From contig JAIPBM010000001.1 of assembly GCA_021739695.1 (NCBI GenBank), positions 1-64,000 on the forward strand: DNA of 64,000 nucleotides, read 5' to 3'. The DNA comes from Flavobacteriales bacterium (GTDB lineage Bacteria > Bacteroidota > Bacteroidia > UBA10329). Numbering within the stretch: position 1 is the first letter of the stretch; the number at the start of each line of letters is the position of its first letter. Positions 3,453 through 13,070 of this stretch are shown here, in pieces. The notes beneath the pieces were generated by a model. It ran no database searches, was not told where the DNA came from, and saw only the letters and a list, made by a program, of their open reading frames with translations. The position numbers were made by a program, and so were the translations under genes.

Positions 3453-3546
3453 TTGCCTTTCTGTTCGGAAGCTTAAATTATCAGCTGCCATCATGAAGAG
3501 CGTTCTACGACAGCTTATCCAAAAGGTTATGGCTTAGTTTGGCCCG

Positions 3547-3557
3547 TTTCGACCAAC
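3547..3557 (-). promoter_or_regulatory. Shared upstream element GTTGGTCGAAA (adhesin 1)
   Basis: The minus-strand 11-mer GTTGGTCGAAA lies 95 bp upstream of the start at 3452. The same 11-mer lies upstream of the neighbouring giant adhesin gene at 11249-11259. Its role (activator site, promoter part or 5' leader) is inferred only from this double occurrence. Confidence 0.35.
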
Positions 3558-3636
3558 TAGTTGTTTCGGCTTACTAGTACCGTGTAAAAATTAAATATTC
3601 AGGGTCGATGGTCGATGAAATCGTGTCGTTGGTCAA

Positions 3637-6600
3637 TCAATAAAGGACCGTTACTGAACCAACAATTTTGGGTTTTCCATTTGGTTGTTCCATTCCATCC
3701 CAATAAATACCGTTCTTGAAAATGGCATTTATCTTCCAAACATAAGCTCCCTGTGGAACGAGTTTTCCTTTGTAACGCCCGTCCCAACCTTCGGAAGGGC
3801 TTCCATTGAACAGCTCCGTAGATTCCCATAGCATGTTGCCCCATTTGTCGTAAACCCACGCATGATACTCGCCAATTCCTTCGCCTTTAGGCAAGAAAAC
3901 GCCAGCATCTCCAGGATTATCGATCACCATCGCATTAGGCACAAATAAGCCGTAAGTCAATTCAATATAAATAGAGGTTTGGGCGGTATCAACACAGCCA
4001 TACTCATTGTACACGTGTAGGACGATATCATAGGGACCGAACTCAGGATATGTGTATGTGGGTTCAAAAAGCTGCGAACCGTCTCCATTTCCGAATGTCC
4101 AATTGTATTCGTTTCCACCTGTAGAACTATTGATCAACGTGTACTGATTTCCTGGTTCTGGAAAAGACAAAAGAACCGGTGTGAAGTTGGCTATTGGCCT
4201 CGGAAAAGCGAATACGGCAGAATCAACAGTCAAAGTGTCCATACAACCATTTTCGTTGGTGACAATTAACGTCACATCATAACTTCCGGGGTTTTCGTAA
4301 AGGTGATATGGATTCGGTTCATCGCTGGTCTGACCATCGCCAAAATCCCAAAGAATAGAAGACATTGGTCCACTTTGATTGAACAGTCCAACCAGAATTG
4401 GGAAGCATCCGTCCGGATTTGGAATAGCAAAATTCGCTTCTGGTAATGGGTCAATTGTCAACCATTTGTGGGTAGAATCCACACATCCGTCCGCAGAAGT
4501 GGCCACCAAAGAAATCCTGTATGCTTGCGCTGTATCGTAAACTGCTGTGGGGAGAAACTGCGTTGAAGAATCTCCGTTACCAAAGGACCAACTGAAGCTG
4601 TTGGCATTGGTGCTATTGTTCGCAAAATCAACTACAACAGGGAAGGTACATGCATCAACAATGGTCTCGGTAAATGCGGCTACAACTGGCGCAAAAGTGG
4701 TAACGACAACCGAGTTTGGCACAGACGTACAGCCGTTCTGATCAACAGCAGTCACCGGAATATTATGTGTTTGCGTGATGTACGTTTCATAGCTATTGCC
4801 AAAGCCTTGTCCGTTGTCCCAAGTGATGAGATACGTTCCTCCACCTCCACTCGCTTCCACACTTAAGGAAACAACCGTTCCCGGACAGACCGTTGTATCA
4901 TTTGATGTGATAAGAATGATCTGATCCGGCTCTGACACCTGAACTGTGTCTGCGGACACGCAACCATTGGCATCGGTTACTTCATAGAGATAATCGCCCG
5001 CTTCAAGACCCGAAGCAGTCTGGGTATTTTGGCCAATTGCAATCCAATTGTAATCGTATGGGCCAACTCCACCACTTGCCAAAATTGTTGCGCTTCCATC
5101 ATCAAAACCGAAACACGTGGCATCGGTTACTTGAAGGACGCTCACATCAATTGCAGATGGGCTGGTCATTTCCAGCTCCAGCGAATCCTGGCAACCATTC
5201 AGGTCGGTAACGAGCACTTCGTAAACTCCAACACCAACGGCATTCAAAATGGGGTCAACATCTCCATTTGACCATAAGTATGAATATGTTGGAACGCCAC
5301 CAGTAGCTTGAACCACAAACTGGCCATTTTGAGTTCCAAAACAAGTTACGGAAGTCGTATCTGTCGGATTTACAGTGAGGTCGGTAGGTTCAGAAAGCGT
5401 GATGCTTTGCGCAAGCTGACAACCGTTGGTATCAGTTACGATCACATCATACGTACCTGCCGAAAGCGAATCTATATCCTGCGTTGTTTCGCCCGTATTC
5501 CATTGATAGGAATAAGGAGCTGTTCCGGCAGAAACCTCCACATTGATGAGTCCGTTTGAAAGACCAAAACAAGAAACATTGAATCCGTTATAGGTCGTTG
5601 GAAATGACTGAACATCAATTGGTTCTGGTTCTGATAGTGTAATGCTATCCAAATGAGAGCAACCATTCGCATCTGTCACGGTAACCACATACGTTCCGGC
5701 CACAACGTCAGAAATGTCTTTCTCGATGGCCGTGTATCCATTCTCGCCCGTCCAGAAAAAATCGTAGTCCAAACAATCGGCTCCGCCAAGTATGCCTAGG
5801 TTGATGGACCCATCAGCCAAGCCTGCGCACGAGATGTTTGTACCGCCAATAACCGTTGGACTTGTAATACTTTCGGTTACCAACGGTTCTGGTTCAGTAA
5901 GCAAAATTGTTTCTGTTACCTGTGTTCCATTGGCATCAGTTACCACAACGTTGTACGAACCTGCAGCCAATCCTACCGCAGTCTCAGTTGTCTGACCATT
6001 CGACCATTGGAATTGATAGGGTGAACATCCCCCAGAAACGTTGGCAGTTGCCTCACCATCATCGGCACCATTACAACTGATATTGTAACCGCAGGCAAGT
6101 GTTGGCGATGAAACCTCCACAACAACTGCCGATGGCTGAATGGTAATGGTAAATGAGCACGCAGCTGTGTTGCCTGACTGATCCTCAGCATCGTATGTTA
6201 CCGTTGTGGTTCCAACTGGGAAATTATCTCCCGATTGGAAATTGCTCGTCATGGTAACGGTGCAATTATCACTTTCGGTCGGTTCTGTCCAAGTAACGGA
6301 TGGCGTACAATCTGAACTATCCGGTGTAAACTGAATGTCAGCTGGACAATTAGCTATTACTGGCGAAATCGTATCCAAAACAGTAATGACTGCAACACAA
6401 TTGTCTGTGTTTCCACTTTGATCCGAAACGGTTAGCGTGATGATTTCCTGACCAAGATCGGCACAGAAGAAATCGGCCTGAGAAAGCGACAACGAGTTAA
6501 TGGCGCAATTATCTGTTGAGCCATTATCTACATCGGCTGGATCAGCCGCAACGCTGCCTGCTGCATCTAAATAAACAGTCAGGTTTTGGCAGATTGCGTT

Positions 6601-9600
6601 CGGATCAACATTATCCAAAATGGTTACCGTAGCCGAACACGTTGAAGCGTTGCCGCTGTTATCCACCACACTCAGTTCAACCGTATTCTGTCCCAAATTG
6701 GAACAATCGAACGAAGTGATATCTAAACTAATAGTGGCAATTCCGCAAAGATCAGACGACCCATTATCTATCTGCGATGGAACGATGGTTGCATTTCCAC
6801 TCGCATCTAACTGGACATTGATATCCTGACAAATAGCCGTTGGCGGAACGTTATCCTCCACGGTAACATTGGCCGAGCAGGTAGAAGAATTCCCAGTGGC
6901 ATCCATAGCGGTGAGTGTCACGGTTGCGGTTCCAAGATTTGAACAATCGAACGTGTTTGGAGTAACGGTTAGATCCGTGACAGCACAATTGTCTGTACTT
7001 CCAGCGTCTACATCAGCGGCCACGATGGAAATGCTTCCGCTGGCATCTAACTGAACTACGATATCTTGACAAACGGCAGCTGGATCGATGTTGTCTTGGA
7101 CCGTTACGATGGCAACACATGAGGCTGAATTCCCATTGGCATCCGTGGCAGTAAGTGTCACGTTATTCGCACCTAGACTCGAACAATTGAAGGTTGTTGG
7201 ATCGGCAGCGAGAGTTGGAACTCCACAATTGTCTGAGGAACCTCCATCCACATCGGAAGCCACAATACTTGCGTTTCCTGAGGCATCCAACTGAATAGTA
7301 ATATTCTGACAAATGGCTGTTGGAGGCATGTTATCTTCCACCGTGATCGTAGTCGTGCAGGTAGAAGAATTTCCGTTCACATCGGTTACCGTCAGCACTG
7401 CTTGAGTTACTCCAATTGTCGAGCAATCGAAGGTGTTTGGCGTTAATGAAACGCTTGCAATGGCGCAATTATCGGTTGAACCATTATCGACCTGCGAAGC
7501 ATTGACACTTGCATTTCCGCTCGCATCCAACTGCACCAAAACATCTTGGCAAAGCGCGGTTGGAGCCGTTACATCAGCCACAGTAACGGTGGAAACACAA
7601 CTGGAGCTGTTTCCGTTAAGATCGGTTGCTGTGAGTGTAACCGAATTCGGCCCAACATTGGAACAATCGAACGAATTCTGGTCAATAGCGAGATTGACGA
7701 TGCCGCAATTATCTGAACTACCTGCATCCACGTCTCCGGTAGTAACGCTGATGGCGCCCGAAGCATCCAATTCCACAGTAATGTCTAGGCATAAGGCAAC
7801 TGGCGGCACATTTTCCTGAACAGTTACCGTTGCGGTACATGTAGAGCTGTTTCCGTTTGCATCGCTCGCGGTGAGTGTAACGGTATTTGCTCCGATGTTG
7901 CTGCAATCGAATGTCGAAGGATCAACCGAAAGATCGGCCACACCGCAATTATCGAACGAACCTCCGTCCACATCGGCACCAACAATACTTGCATTTCCAG
8001 TTGCATCCAATTGAATGACAATATCCTGACAAACTGCGGTTGGAGCAGTATTCTCCACAAGTATCACGGTTGCAGAGCACGTAGAAGAATTTCCTGCAAC
8101 ATCAGTAACCGTAAGTTCTACCTGAGCGGGCGCACTCACAGTACAATCGAACGAATTAGGCGTAACAGCAAGCGTCACAGAACCGCTGCAATTATCTGTT
8201 GAACCATTATCGATCTGCGCAGCTACGATGGTTGCCATTCCATTGGCATCCAACGCAACCGTAATGTCTTGACAAACGGCCGTTGGGCCAAGATCGTCCT
8301 CAACGGTTACTGTGGCGTTGCACGAAGAAACAAGTCCATTCACATCCGTTACGGTAAGCACTACCGCATTGGACCCAATTTCTGCGCACGTGAATGTATT
8401 CGGAGATACGGTCATGTTGTCAATTCCGCAATTATCAGTACTTCCTCCGTCCACATCAACTGTGCTGATGCTCGCGTTTCCAGCAGCATCCAACGAAACG
8501 GTAGTATTCTGGCAAATAGCGTTCGGAGCGAGGTTGTCAGCCACTGAAACGATTGCCGAACATGATGCCGAATTTCCACTCGCATCCACAACTGTTACGC
8601 TTACCGAGTTATCGCCAATATCAGCACAGGTAAAATCGGCTGGCGCAACGGTTATATCGACAACGCCACAGTTATCCGTAGAACCTGAACCGAGCTGACT
8701 TCCCGTAACTGAAACGTTGCCCGTAGCATCCAGATCAACAGAAATATTCTGGCAAACAGCTACTGGATCTGCCACATCATTCACCGTTACTGTTGCATTG
8801 CAAGTAGATGTGTTTCCGCTTGCGTCTGTAACGGTAAGCGTTACCGTAGTCGAAGGAACATCAGCACAACTAAACGTATTTTGATTGAGCGAAATGCTCT
8901 GGATCGCACAATTATCCGTGGAGCCATTATCAACCTGCGCTGCGGTGATGGAAGCATTTCCCGATGCATCCAAGGTCACGGAAACATCTTGACAAACCGC
9001 CACAGGCGGAATCTGGTCTTGAACCGTTACGGTAGCATTACAAGTGCTCACATTTCCGTTCACATCCGTAACGGTAAGCACAACAGGATTCGGTCCAAGT
9101 TGGGCACACGTGAAAGCATTTGGAGAAACCACTAACGAAGCAATTCCGCAGTTGTCCGTACTTCCATTATCTACAACCGTGGCCGAAATGGTTGCGCTTC
9201 CGCTTGCGTTCAACTGTACGGTAGCATTTTGGCAAATGGCATTCGGCAATTCAGAATCATCCTGAATAATGGACGCTGTGACCATGTCTGTACAACCGTT
9301 GGCATCCGTCACGTTTACGGTATAGTTGCCAACCGTAAGGTTGGAAATGGAAGCAGTTGTCTCATTATTCGGAAGCCACGTGTAGTTGAAAGGAGCCGTT
9401 CCGCCAGATACGAACGTACTCAACGCTCCATCCGAACCTCCAACACAAGAAACATTCTGATCAACAATAGCGAGAATTGCTGGTTCGTCAAAAACCATGA
9501 TGGACGCATCGGCAGAAGCCGTGCAGCCTTGAGCAATGTAAATGACGTAATGCGTTACAGTATAATTTCCGCTAGATGCGTAGCTGTAACTAGGATTTTC

Positions 9601-11106
9601 GAAGGAGGAACTGTTGCCATCACCAAAATCCCAGAGATGAGAAACCGTTCCTCCCGTGGCACCGGTGTTGGTAAAATTGAACACGTTCCCGTTGAAACAT
9701 TGCTGATCATCGGCCACCGTGAAATCTGGAGAAACCACCGTAACCGTTTCGGAACTGCTTAGGCTCTGTCCGGCACAAGCATCGGTAACTGAATAGGTAT
9801 ATGTGGTTGTAGCAGTTGGCGATACTGTAACATTATTGCCAGCAGGCGCGCCATTGTTCCATCCGCTGGCATACGGAGAAATACTTCCAGCAGGATTGGC
9901 CGTCAGATTGGCGGATTGACCCAAACAGATGGTAGTGGTTCCAGATGTCGAAAGTGAAAGTTGCGTGTCGTTATCAAGAATATCCATGGAAACAGTTGGC
10001 GGGGACGCGCAGGTGCAGCCACCACCAACTAGACCCAACACTACTGTTTCTGTTCCTTCCGTCACGAAATCCAAAACACCTTGAATATTGAGAATCACTG
10101 AATCTTGCCCAGCTGGAATGGTGATCGTTCCAGGCAAAGCCGTGTAATCTGCGCCTGGAGTAGCTGTTCCTGAAACATTGTAAGCAACAGTAAGCGGAGC
10201 TGCGTTGCTTGCTCCAGACAAGCGTTTGAAAACAAAACTTCCGATATCGCAACCTTCATACACTCCAGACACGCTCGTAATGGCATTCAGTTCTGCACCT
10301 TCTCCTCCGCCTGCAGAGAAACTACCTGCTTCTAAGAAAACACCCGAATCCAAAGCCCCGTCTCCTGCATCAGCAACCGCTATTTTAATATGGTACGTTA
10401 AACATGGAGTTACCACAGCAACTGCTGTCAGCACGGTTGTGTAAGCATCGTACTGAACCGCTGGACCATTTGAATTATCCACGTAATAAGCACAATTGGT
10501 GCACGGACCGTTCAGAGCTGGTTCAGAACCGCTATAGCCGTTGTTCACGTTATCGATTGCCACAGGCGTACTTGTTCCGGGAATCAAGGCAATATTCATT
10601 GCTCCTCCAGAAAACGGACCCGCAATTCCAGGGCCTGAAATGAAGAACCCGAAAACATCGTTGTAACCCGAACTCACATATTCTGGATATTCTTCTGAGC
10701 CGAAAATGTAATTGAATCTAAGCGTGTCGCTTTGCGGGATGAAATCAAACTCCAAAATAGACGCGTCATAGGTTTGAAAACCCGATGCTAAAACCGTCAG
10801 GTCAGGATCGCCACCTAATCCATTACCCGCACCGATGGAATTTGCGTTATCAGGCCCTAATGCAACAATGGCTTGTCCAGTGGTTAATAATACTCCACTA
10901 TTAAGCCCTAGAATGGTGCCATTTCCATTGAACGTTCCTGCTGCAACAGCCGCTCCGTTATACGTGATATTTGAAGCCGTTACGCACGAACCCAACAGCA
11001 CATTCTCCACGTAATTCTGGACATCTGCAGCGGTTGTAGCTGGAGATACAGCAATTGATTGCGCCATAGCTGAACGGGCAGAAACAAGACTAAACGAAAC
11101 GGCCAA
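3637..11106 (-). CDS. Giant multidomain surface adhesin, T9SS type B cargo
   Basis: At least 2489 residues. Order of domains: signal sequence ending near SAMAQ; choice-of-anchor-L-like domain (about 20-270, with GSEEYPEYV near 137 and FGFFISGPG); Calx-beta-like domain (about 285-375); Ig/PKD-like domain; PKD with WDFGDG (about 460-540); one SprB-like unit; 12 HYR-like units of about 79 residues (about 620-1580, each with a CQD/CQN-x-LDASG signature); one true HYR domain; five SprB repeats (about 1660-2060); an Ig-like segment; three PKD-like domains; and a C-terminal gliding-motility/T9SS type B sorting domain (FVPNAM, YDKWGN, GWDGRYKGK, GAYVWKI). By family it should cross the outer membrane by T9SS and sit on the surface, in adhesion or gliding. 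TTG at 11106 is the first ordinary start codon, but a full signal peptide reads in frame from ATT 11151, so the true start is probably upstream. Confidence 0.93.
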   Translation of the reverse strand: MAVSFSLVSARSAMAQSIAVSPATTAADVQNYVENVLLGSCVTASNITYNGAAVAAGTFNGNGTILGLNSGVLLTTGQAIVALGPDNANSIGAGNGLGGDPDLTVLASGFQTYDASILEFDFIPQSDTLRFNYIFGSEEYPEYVSSGYNDVFGFFISGPGIAGPFSGGAMNIALIPGTSTPVAIDNVNNGYSGSEPALNGPCTNCAYYVDNSNGPAVQYDAYTTVLTAVAVVTPCLTYHIKIAVADAGDGALDSGVFLEAGSFSAGGGEGAELNAITSVSGVYEGCDIGSFVFKRLSGASNAAPLTVAYNVSGTATPGADYTALPGTITIPAGQDSVILNIQGVLDFVTEGTETVVLGLVGGGCTCASPPTVSMDILDNDTQLSLSTSGTTTICLGQSANLTANPAGSISPYASGWNNGAPAGNNVTVSPTATTTYTYSVTDACAGQSLSSSETVTVVSPDFTVADDQQCFNGNVFNFTNTGATGGTVSHLWDFGDGNSSSFENPSYSYASSGNYTVTHYVIYIAQGCTASADASIMVFDEPAILAIVDQNVSCVGGSDGALSTFVSGGTAPFNYTWLPNNETTASISNLTVGNYTVNVTDANGCTDMVTASIIQDDSELPNAICQNATVQLNASGSATISATVVDNGSTDNCGIASLVVSPNAFTCAQLGPNPVVLTVTDVNGNVSTCNATVTVQDQIPPVAVCQDVSVTLDASGNASITAAQVDNGSTDNCAIQSISLNQNTFSCADVPSTTVTLTVTDASGNTSTCNATVTVNDVADPVAVCQNISVDLDATGNVSVTGSQLGSGSTDNCGVVDITVAPADFTCADIGDNSVSVTVVDASGNSASCSAIVSVADNLAPNAICQNTTVSLDAAGNASISTVDVDGGSTDNCGIDNMTVSPNTFTCAEIGSNAVVLTVTDVNGLVSSCNATVTVEDDLGPTAVCQDITVALDANGMATIVAAQIDNGSTDNCSGSVTLAVTPNSFDCTVSAPAQVELTVTDVAGNSSTCSATVILVENTAPTAVCQDIVIQLDATGNASIVGADVDGGSFDNCGVADLSVDPSTFDCSNIGANTVTLTASDANGNSSTCTATVTVQENVPPVALCLDITVELDASGAISVTTGDVDAGSSDNCGIVNLAIDQNSFDCSNVGPNSVTLTATDLNGNSSSCVSTVTVADVTAPTALCQDVLVQLDASGNASVNASQVDNGSTDNCAIASVSLTPNTFDCSTIGVTQAVLTVTDVNGNSSTCTTTITVEDNMPPTAICQNITIQLDASGNASIVASDVDGGSSDNCGVPTLAADPTTFNCSSLGANNVTLTATDANGNSASCVAIVTVQDNIDPAAVCQDIVVQLDASGSISIVAADVDAGSTDNCAVTDLTVTPNTFDCSNLGTATVTLTAMDATGNSSTCSANVTVEDNVPPTAICQDINVQLDASGNATIVPSQIDNGSSDLCGIATISLDITSFDCSNLGQNTVELSVVDNSGNASTCSATVTILDNVDPNAICQNLTVYLDAAGSVAADPADVDNGSTDNCAINSLSLSQADFFCADLGQEIITLTVSDQSGNTDNCVAVITVLDTISPVIANCPADIQFTPDSSDCTPSVTWTEPTESDNCTVTMTSNFQSGDNFPVGTTTVTYDAEDQSGNTAACSFTITIQPSAVVVEVSSPTLACGYNISCNGADDGEATANVSGGCSPYQFQWSNGQTTETAVGLAAGSYNVVVTDANGTQVTETILLTEPEPLVTESITSPTVIGGTNISCAGLADGSINLGILGGADCLDYDFFWTGENGYTAIEKDISDVVAGTYVVTVTDANGCSHLDSITLSEPEPIDVQSFPTTYNGFNVSCFGLSNGLINVEVSAGTAPYSYQWNTGETTQDIDSLSAGTYDVIVTDTNGCQLAQSITLSEPTDLTVNPTDTTSVTCFGTQNGQFVVQATGGVPTYSYLWSNGDVDPILNAVGVGVYEVLVTDLNGCQDSLELEMTSPSAIDVSVLQVTDATCFGFDDGSATILASGGVGPYDYNWIAIGQNTQTASGLEAGDYLYEVTDANGCVSADTVQVSEPDQIILITSNDTTVCPGTVVSLSVEASGGGGTYLITWDNGQGFGNSYETYITQTHNIPVTAVDQNGCTSVPNSVVVTTFAPVVAAFTETIVDACTFPVVVDFANNSTNANSFSWSFGNGDSSTQFLPTAVYDTAQAYRISLVATSADGCVDSTHKWLTIDPLPEANFAIPNPDGCFPILVGLFNQSGPMSSILWDFGDGQTSDEPNPYHLYENPGSYDVTLIVTNENGCMDTLTVDSAVFAFPRPIANFTPVLLSFPEPGNQYTLINSSTGGNEYNWTFGNGDGSQLFEPTYTYPEFGPYDIVLHVYNEYGCVDTAQTSIYIELTYGLFVPNAMVIDNPGDAGVFLPKGEGIGEYHAWVYDKWGNMLWESTELFNGSPSEGWDGRYKGKLVPQGAYVWKINAIFKNGIYWDGMEQPNGKPKIVGSVTVLY
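4925..6120 (-). repeat. Array of five SprB-type repeats
   Basis: Five coding units of about 239 bp inside the giant adhesin, each encoding a sequence like N(V/I)SCxGxxDG...SGGxxPYxYxW...GxYxVxVTDxNGC...LSEP. The units are diverged at DNA level. SprB-type repeats are known from the gliding adhesin SprB of Flavobacterium johnsoniae. Confidence 0.8.
6375..9250 (-). repeat. Array of twelve HYR-like repeats, ~237-240 bp each
   Basis: Twelve coding units counted from the recurring (T/V/N)A(I/V)CQ(N/D)...LDASG signature. Period is 79-80 codons. Units are much more diverged at DNA level than those in the neighbouring adhesin. Because the array is so regular, long open frames appear on the opposite strand; none of them looks like a gene. 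Confidence 0.88.
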
Positions 11107-11248
11107 CGCAAGCCAAACGCTTGTTATATGTGAGCGGAGTTGTTTGATAATTATCCTGGTTTTATGGTACAGTCAACGTAAATGCTGAGTTGTACTTAAA
11201 GAATCGTTGTACGCCAATTTGCTCAGAAGGTTTACAAATACTGTGGTT

Positions 11249-11259
11249 TTTCGACCAAC
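11249..11259 (-). promoter_or_regulatory. Shared upstream element GTTGGTCGAAA (adhesin 2)
   Basis: Second copy of the minus-strand 11-mer also found at 3547-3557. It lies 98 bp upstream of the putative ATT start at 11151, almost the same spacing as the 95 bp in front of the other adhesin, and 143 bp from TTG 11106. The rest of 11160-11342 shows no clear TAnnTTTG match on the minus strand. Confidence 0.35.
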
Positions 11260-11342: not shown

Positions 11343-13070
11343 ATGGATTTCGGTTTTGTAGATCTTCTTCAATTGATCGGTGCCCTCGGGTTCTTCATTT
11401 ATGGAATGAAGGTGATGAGCGATGGCATTCAGAAAGTGGCCGGTTCAAAAATGCGCGAGATCCTAAGCGCCATGACCTCGAACCGTTTCTTGGGAGTGCT
11501 TACTGGATTTTTAGTCACGGCACTGGTTCAATCATCTTCGGCCACAACGGTGATGATCGTAAGCTTTGTGAACGCAGGGCTCTTGAGTCTGGTTCAGTCC
11601 ATTGGTGTGATCATGGGCGCAAACATCGGCACCACCATCACAGCTTGGCTCATTTCTATTTTGGGCTTCAAGGTCAAGATATCTGCTGTAGCGCTTCCCA
11701 TAATTGCCGTTGCGTTCCCAATGCTCTTTTCGTCACGAACATCCATCAATTCGTGGGCGCATGTACTTATTGGTTTTGCCATTCTATTCATGGGATTGGA
11801 TGAGTTGAAGAATTCCGTGCCCGACCTCAAATCAAATCCACAGATACTCAGTTTCCTTCAGCATTATGCCCACATGGGTTATCTGTCGACCTTCATTTTC
11901 ATCATTGTCGGTACAGTAATAACGTTGGTGGTGCAATCATCCAGCGCTGCCATGGCGCTTACACTGGTGATGTGCAATGAAGGTTGGATACCATTTGAGC
12001 TTGCGGCCGCTATGGTGTTGGGCGAAAATATCGGAACAACCGTTACGGCAAATTTGGCTGCGCTTGTTGGAAACGTGCATGCAAAGCGAGCTGCGGCAGC
12101 TCACTTTATTTTCAATGTTTTTGGAGTTGCCTGGATGTTCTTGTTGTTCCCGTTCTTCCTACGTGGAATTTCGTGGTATATGGCCAAATACATGAATATG
12201 TTCCCGTCATCGGCAAGCGAAAATTTCAATCCTGAACACATTCCGATTGCCCTTTCTATTTTCCATACAAGCTTCAATATTCTCAATGTGATTCTTCTTG
12301 TTGGCACGGTTCCGCTCATCGCTAAAGCAGTGATCAAACTCATTCCTTCAAAAGGAGATGATGCTGATTTCAGTCTCGAATTCATCGGAAGAGGGCTGGT
12401 TCAAACTCCAGAAATATCGTTGGTGGAAGTGGAGAACGAGATCATCAAATTCGGCAAACTGAACATCAAAGGCGTTGAGAAGATCAGCAACCTGATTGAA
12501 GAAACTGAATACCGTAAGCAACAGAAGTTGCTTACTCAGATCAAGGAATATGAAGAACACACCGACCTGATTGAACTGAAAGTGGCCGAATTCCTGATGG
12601 AATTGGCTAAGGCACCATTATCAAACGAGGGCTCAAGAAGGGTTCAATCGTTTCTTTCTGTGGTCAATCATATGGAATCGATTGGTGATATCTACTATCA
12701 AATGTCCCGCTCTGTAGAGCAAAAGATCGAGAAGAAGATCTGGTTTGAAGAAAACCACCGAATTGATCTTCGAGAGATGAAAACGAACGTCATCAAAGCC
12801 ATGCAATTGATGATGAAAAACATCTCTAAAGACCCCGAAAAAATTGTTTTGGATGAAGCCGTTGCCGTTGAAACCAAGCTCAACGAACTGAGAGATGCAT
12901 TCAGAGCAAAGAATTTCAAACGTATTGAGAAGAGGAAAGTGAGCTTAGAAGCTGGACTGATCTATATGGATCTGGTAAGTGGATATGAGAAGATCGGTGA
13001 CAATGTGATCCATGTGTCTCAAGCCTTGCGTGGAGATCATTTGGATCTGGAAGATGAAATCGCCAAATAG
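11343..13070 (+). CDS. Na/Pi cotransporter family protein with PhoU-like domain
   Basis: 575 residues, inner membrane. The N-terminal half (about 1-340) carries the two inverted Na/Pi-cotransporter repeats with the signature QSSSATT near residue 62 and QSSSAAM near residue 200, among about eight hydrophobic helices. The C-terminal part (about 350-575) is soluble, rich in charged helices and resembles PhoU. Bacterial members (NptA/YjbB type) move phosphate with sodium; substrate and direction here are inferred. It stands alone between the giant adhesin (divergent) and a small lipoprotein gene (convergent, 12 bp away), with no pst/pho genes in sight. Confidence 0.9.
   Translation: MDFGFVDLLQLIGALGFFIYGMKVMSDGIQKVAGSKMREILSAMTSNRFLGVLTGFLVTALVQSSSATTVMIVSFVNAGLLSLVQSIGVIMGANIGTTITAWLISILGFKVKISAVALPIIAVAFPMLFSSRTSINSWAHVLIGFAILFMGLDELKNSVPDLKSNPQILSFLQHYAHMGYLSTFIFIIVGTVITLVVQSSSAAMALTLVMCNEGWIPFELAAAMVLGENIGTTVTANLAALVGNVHAKRAAAAHFIFNVFGVAWMFLLFPFFLRGISWYMAKYMNMFPSSASENFNPEHIPIALSIFHTSFNILNVILLVGTVPLIAKAVIKLIPSKGDDADFSLEFIGRGLVQTPEISLVEVENEIIKFGKLNIKGVEKISNLIEETEYRKQQKLLTQIKEYEEHTDLIELKVAEFLMELAKAPLSNEGSRRVQSFLSVVNHMESIGDIYYQMSRSVEQKIEKKIWFEENHRIDLREMKTNVIKAMQLMMKNISKDPEKIVLDEAVAVETKLNELRDAFRAKNFKRIEKRKVSLEAGLIYMDLVSGYEKIGDNVIHVSQALRGDHLDLEDEIAK

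Follow-up and report, generated by a model that had tools for sequence, protein, structure and literature searches.

A candidate composite ECF-type promoter shared by a tandem pair of giant adhesin genes in a Flavobacteriales genus

INTRODUCTION

Promoters recognized by ECF sigma factors usually have a two-box layout, AAC-N16-CGTA, as in the promoters of B. subtilis SigW. Several promoters that act on the T9SS or on its surface substrates have been described. The promoters mapped in F. psychrophilum include some whose −10 box is of the CGT type (SM6); these are attributed to ECF sigma factors and drive T9SS components (PMC9723704). The remFG-sprCDBF operon (SprB operon) of the same species has a sigma-54 promoter (SM4) and a TAnnTTGY promoter (SM5), both supported by mutagenesis (PMC9723704). 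In the PorXY-SigP system of P. gingivalis, SigP regulates T9SS genes, and the motif C(T)AAA(G/C/T)A(T)A(C)T(A/G)A has been proposed for it (PMC4800418).

Here, we describe a conserved element found before two giant adhesin genes, A and B, in a stretch of 64,000 nucleotides from a Flavobacteriales bacterium (contig JAIPBM010000001.1), which we refer to as the window. The element has the layout of a SigW-type promoter, but it occurs in another phylum and carries an additional block further upstream. SM6 promoters likewise have a CGT-type −10 box and are linked to the T9SS, but they drive genes of the T9SS machinery, whereas the present element stands before two adhesin genes only and includes the extra block (PMC9723704). 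The promoters of remFG-sprCDBF also drive a giant SprB-type adhesin of the T9SS, but they are of the SM4 and SM5 types (PMC9723704), which we did not encounter before genes A and B. PorXY-SigP places T9SS-linked surface genes under an ECF sigma factor, as is proposed here, but the SigP motif is unlike AACCTT/CGTA and the SigP targets differ from the adhesin pair (PMC4800418). In a literature search of partial coverage, we found no pair of choice-of-anchor-L adhesins for which an ECF promoter had been described.

RESULTS

The product of gene A includes HYR and PKD domains, five SprB-repeat stretches and a choice-of-anchor L domain, which matches NF038133 with 258.9 bits (Table 1). Between positions 11026 and 11151, no ATG, GTG or TTG leaves a full signal peptide, and the best start codons are ATT 11151 or ATC 11148 (IIKQLRSH...); among the orthologs of gene A, that of G004 (L016/L044) has only ATC at the matching place, that of G001 has GTG, that of G008 has TTG, and that of G003 has TTG or GTG further upstream. 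These codons make a weak or non-AUG start possible for gene A. Gene B is complete in none of the genomes examined. In three relatives, A and B are 49–56% identical over the N-terminal 330 aa, and by this identity the two genes are tandem paralogs. The B gene of the source genome shares the candidate promoter, the leader and a signal-peptide-like start with its orthologs, but from the signal-peptide start to about residue 850 it has no match in A or in the B proteins of the relatives, and similarity in the repeat stalk returns only from about residue 853–866. This pattern suggests that an N-terminal module has been exchanged behind a fixed expression site.

Table 1. Coordinates of the adhesin locus and its candidate promoter elements in the window
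Feature	Position	Strand	Remark
Gene B, giant adhesin with HYR-type repeats, from ATG 3452, running off the contig end	1..3452	-	Start supported by relatives
Putative ECF-type −10 box CGTA, gene B	3506..3509	-	Same genus alignment as gene A boxes, and AACCTTTT-N11-CGTAGAA matches
Putative ECF-type −35 box AACCTT, gene B	3523..3528	-	AACCTTTT-N11-CGTAGAA once per genome in six genus genomes, always here
Upstream block GTTGGTCGAAA, candidate gene B promoter	3547..3557	-	Leave-one-genome-out p 0.0001
Gene A, giant adhesin, 2504 aa from ATT 11151	3637..11151	-	Start codon uncertain
Putative ECF-type −10 box CGTA, gene A	11210..11213	-	Invariant in 10/10 aligned genus sites
Putative ECF-type −35 box AACCTT, gene A	11227..11232	-	Invariant in 10/10 aligned genus sites; 13 nt to CGTA
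Upstream block GTTGGTCGAAA, candidate gene A promoter	11249..11259	-	Leave-one-genome-out p 0.00045
Divergent gene	11343..13070	+	Neighbour of gene A in 5/5 genomes; outside the element

The initial annotation had drawn attention to the 11-mer GTTGGTCGAAA, placed before both adhesin genes at nearly equal distances, and had considered a chance repeat unlikely. The window indeed holds only two exact copies, at the positions that had been given, and the distances of 95 bp (gene B) and 98 bp (gene A) are correct if translation starts at ATG 3452 and ATT 11151, respectively. In shuffled versions of the window the word has a mean of 0.06 copies, and none of 100 shuffles had two. Nevertheless, the argument from the word by itself was overstated, given that 2039 distinct 11-mers are present at least twice in the window and that some 11-mer is common to 5 of the 703 pairs of 150-bp upstream regions, the GTTGGTCGAAA pair being one of the five. 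Similarly, the 4.24-Mb genome has five copies of GTTGGTCGAAA, the same number as of the reversed control word, and the remaining three lie inside ORFs of 341, 507 and 437 aa. We therefore rejected GTTGGTCGAAA as a genome-wide motif and consider it, taken alone, to be poor evidence; a general role before secreted or T9SS genes is likewise unsupported, as none of the other genomic copies precedes a gene and the composite element described below is limited to the adhesin locus. The shared element is nevertheless real, because the match extends downstream of the 11-mer and is conserved in relatives. A chance repeat, to which the unremarkable frequency of shared 11-mers and the genomic count equal to control would point, is hardly credible in view of conservation at 11 sites in seven genomes and a match outside the sample from which the element was defined.

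Alignment of the upstream regions of A and B in the source genome gave GTTGGTCGAAA, then 16 or 18 bp, then AACCTT-N13-CGTA-N-AACG. Orthologs of gene A are found in relatives of the same genus, and comparison of orthologous regions, as the initial annotation had proposed, showed the composite upstream both of these orthologs and of the next downstream gene (B). It stands before all five first genes (source genome, G001, G003, G004 and G008) and all six second genes (source genome, G002, G003, G004, G006 and G008) for which upstream sequence is available, that is, in seven of the nine genomes of the genus, with several sites near contig ends; the G002 site is counted as B because it is preceded by an adhesin C-terminus. 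G005 and G007 lack the site, and neither has a close ortholog of gene A, with identities of 52% and 60% for the best matches.

The invariant columns of ten aligned genus sites are AACCTT, CGTA, the A that follows and GTCG.A in the upstream block. The distance from AACCTT to CGTA is 13 nt in 11/11 sites, whereas that from the upstream block to AACCTT varies from 14 to 17; this combination is consistent with a sigma factor that makes a rigid contact and with a second contact, further upstream, that is flexible. Because core sites were collected by a pattern allowing at most one mismatch, the invariance of the core is partly selected, and a fair judgement depends on three other tests: the presence counts, the upstream-block scores in left-out genomes and the match in G006. 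For the second of these, the upstream block of each left-out genome was scored with a matrix built from the remaining genomes, and random places in the window served as the background: p was ≤0.0033 for 10/11 sites and 0.047 for the A site of G003, whose upstream block is weak; as a set, the five A-type sites show lower conservation than the B-type sites. For the third, a sequence-only model trained on ten sites and run over the nine genomes, with the first 150 candidates per genome scored, recovered all ten and one site that it had not seen (G006:C36:3732-3795, E 6.9e-5), which is also matched by the exact pattern and immediately follows the C-terminus of an A-like adhesin, at the place expected for the start of gene B. 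The next-best place among the candidates scored had an E of 0.02.

The composite is restricted to the adhesin-pair locus and is found almost nowhere else in the group. In the source genome, AACCTT-N13-CGTA has five exact matches versus 30 for the reversed pattern, and with a trailing NA added just the two adhesin sites match. In the nine genomes, AACCTT-N13-CGTANA has 15 exact matches, 11 of them the adhesin sites, versus 47 for the reversed control. A broad regulon of the AACCTT/CGTA core was rejected because matches are rarer than those of the control genus-wide. The four non-adhesin matches (L142, L143, L146 and L150) are outside ORFs of at least 100 aa, and three of them are 60–86 nt before an ORF, two such ORFs beginning like secreted proteins. 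The longer pattern AACCTTTT-N11-CGTAGAA has exactly six exact matches in the genus, the six B sites, and with two mismatches allowed is rarer than its control.

Since A and B are paralogs, their upstream DNA was once identical, and the element might be functionless homology left over from a tandem duplication of A to give B. We consider this improbable: across A and B of several species the blocks alone are invariant and the other columns are randomised, and the B gene of the source genome retains the element in spite of its unrelated N-terminal module. Still more improbable, by a little, is an RNA leader, the alternative raised in the initial annotation; the 11-mer would then lie in the 5′ UTR and act as an RNA structure or a small-RNA target. 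The word would be transcribed if TAATTTTT, upstream of gene B, is a promoter, but RNAalifold predicts no base pair on the ten-sequence alignment, there is no Rfam match at the site, and the blocks fit a promoter layout in which the transcription start would fall downstream of the 11-mer.

Taken together, these results make it probable that the tandem adhesin paralogs have in common a composite ECF-type promoter, of which the 11-mer forms the distal part and which would co-express both genes. The proposal that the word is a binding site co-ordinating adhesin expression thus stands with respect to a cis-element before both genes, but the word itself would be merely the upstream part of this larger, ECF-like promoter. 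All 11 sites read AAC-N16-CGTA, within the 15–17 nt typical of ECF promoters, a count that is partly circular as the sites were gathered with such a pattern. On this assignment the upstream block of gene A would be at about −47 to −57 from the transcription start, and the 5′ UTR of gene B would be about 46 nt, the B ATG being 74–76 nt after AAC in 5/5 B-type sites that cover the region.

A different division of labour would make the 55-bp block an operator joined to another promoter, with a response regulator or transcription factor on GGTCGAA and AACCTT..CGTA and a sigma-A-type polymerase. We give this account a small but real share of our confidence. A regulon of two genes would be no less expected under a dedicated transcription factor than under a sigma factor, and B-type sites have, some 64 nt upstream of AAC, a near-match to the sigma-A box (TAATTTTT or similar). 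Yet this near-match is missing the G and has no counterpart at A-type sites, and no housekeeping (sigma-A) −7 box TAnnTTTG recurs at a common position downstream of the 11-mer, where the rigid AAC-N16-CGTA follows the standard ECF layout. In contrast to the adhesin side, such a TAnnTTTG box can be read on the strand of the divergent gene, which appears Na/phosphate cotransporter-like by reading of its sequence and which starts 107–112 nt from AAC in five genomes: TACTTTTG is present in 4/5 sequences, and the source genome has TACTTTTA, with one mismatch.

The operator account also draws on the distribution of sigma factors in the genus. We clustered a genus-wide inventory of ECF sigma factors, from draft genomes 70–98% complete, into nine ortholog groups and two single proteins. 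No group among the nine follows the element in its distribution, with members in all seven genomes that bear the site and in neither of those that lack it; co-occurrence therefore does not link a sigma factor to the element. Members of one group, g6 (G000:C33:11187 in the source genome; L218, L226, L233 and L241), have upstream boxes of their own, AACC...TTCGTy, with AAC-N16-CGT 33 nt before the start in 4/6, so that the layout is represented elsewhere in the genus; g6 probably has a self-regulated, nearly leaderless ECF promoter, judging from these boxes. By co-occurrence, g6 does not fit the element, as it has no member in G008, which bears both adhesin sites. A second group, g1, was rejected as self-regulated because its "promoter" falls inside its own ORF.

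Of 79 choice-of-anchor-L loci from outside and inside the genus, two (L089 and L131) were dropped for short upstream DNA, and of the 77 scored, three belong to the genus. None of the 74 loci outside the genus scored above the best reversed control. Upstream regions from outside the genus, 89 after de-duplication, had three matches at the N13 spacing versus 0–3 at other spacings. A wider Bacteroidia motif before choice-of-anchor-L genes was thus not found in the scored loci.

Other arrangements were observed at some adhesin loci. Three loci of another lineage (L067, L071 and L090) have AACCTTTAATCGA...TTCGTTCGACA, an AAC-N16-CGT, in the same place, 218 nt before the choice-of-anchor-L match; this is possibly an ECF promoter of other adhesins, and L067/L071, as well as L069, are leads only. 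A further choice-of-anchor-L adhesin of the source genome, L050 (G000:C22, ~1780–1860), and its relative L049 (G006:C337, ~2190–2260) share a different conserved upstream sequence, AAATGTATAGAyGAAGACGTA, without AACCTT.

The T9SS is present in the genus, with PorU and GldN in 9/9 genomes. Upstream of porU, the T9SS sortase gene, there is no conserved AAC-N16-CGT, and AAC-N15-17-CGT occurs in just one of seven loci. By this comparison at porU, the element does not appear to belong to an ECF regulon of the T9SS machinery of the SM6 or SigP type. Five porU loci (L282, L283, L286, L287 and L292) have a similar upstream stretch around AACCCTTATCGTTATGCGGCTGTTTCCTGA.

DISCUSSION

If the element is indeed a composite ECF-type promoter, an ECF-type sigma factor would read AACCTT as the −35 box and CGTA as the −10 box at their fixed 13-nt spacing, and a second protein, either a DNA-binding activator or the RNA polymerase alpha C-terminal domain, would contact GGTCGAA at roughly −50, some 15 bp upstream of these boxes. 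Genes A and B would then be switched on jointly by one envelope or surface signal. The element may have been copied with the tandem duplication of the adhesin gene, after which selection would have kept it while the remaining upstream DNA diverged.

A more elaborate version of this proposal, which we regard as speculative and rather doubtful, combines the composite promoter with the organization of the two genes. A fixed unit, made up of a dedicated ECF promoter with its activator site, the leader and the signal-peptide start, would precede an exchangeable displayed N-terminal module, as in the B gene of the source genome, and gene A would be throttled by a non-AUG start (AUU or AUC), such that the two adhesins would be made in a set proportion per signal.

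A short word repeated in one genome says little until relatives are compared. Little is known about the timing of very large surface-protein production in gliding and adhesive Bacteroidota, and an element with two copies, unique in the genome to this locus, would be a clean and testable handle on this question: one promoter, one gene pair, one sigma factor and one activator.
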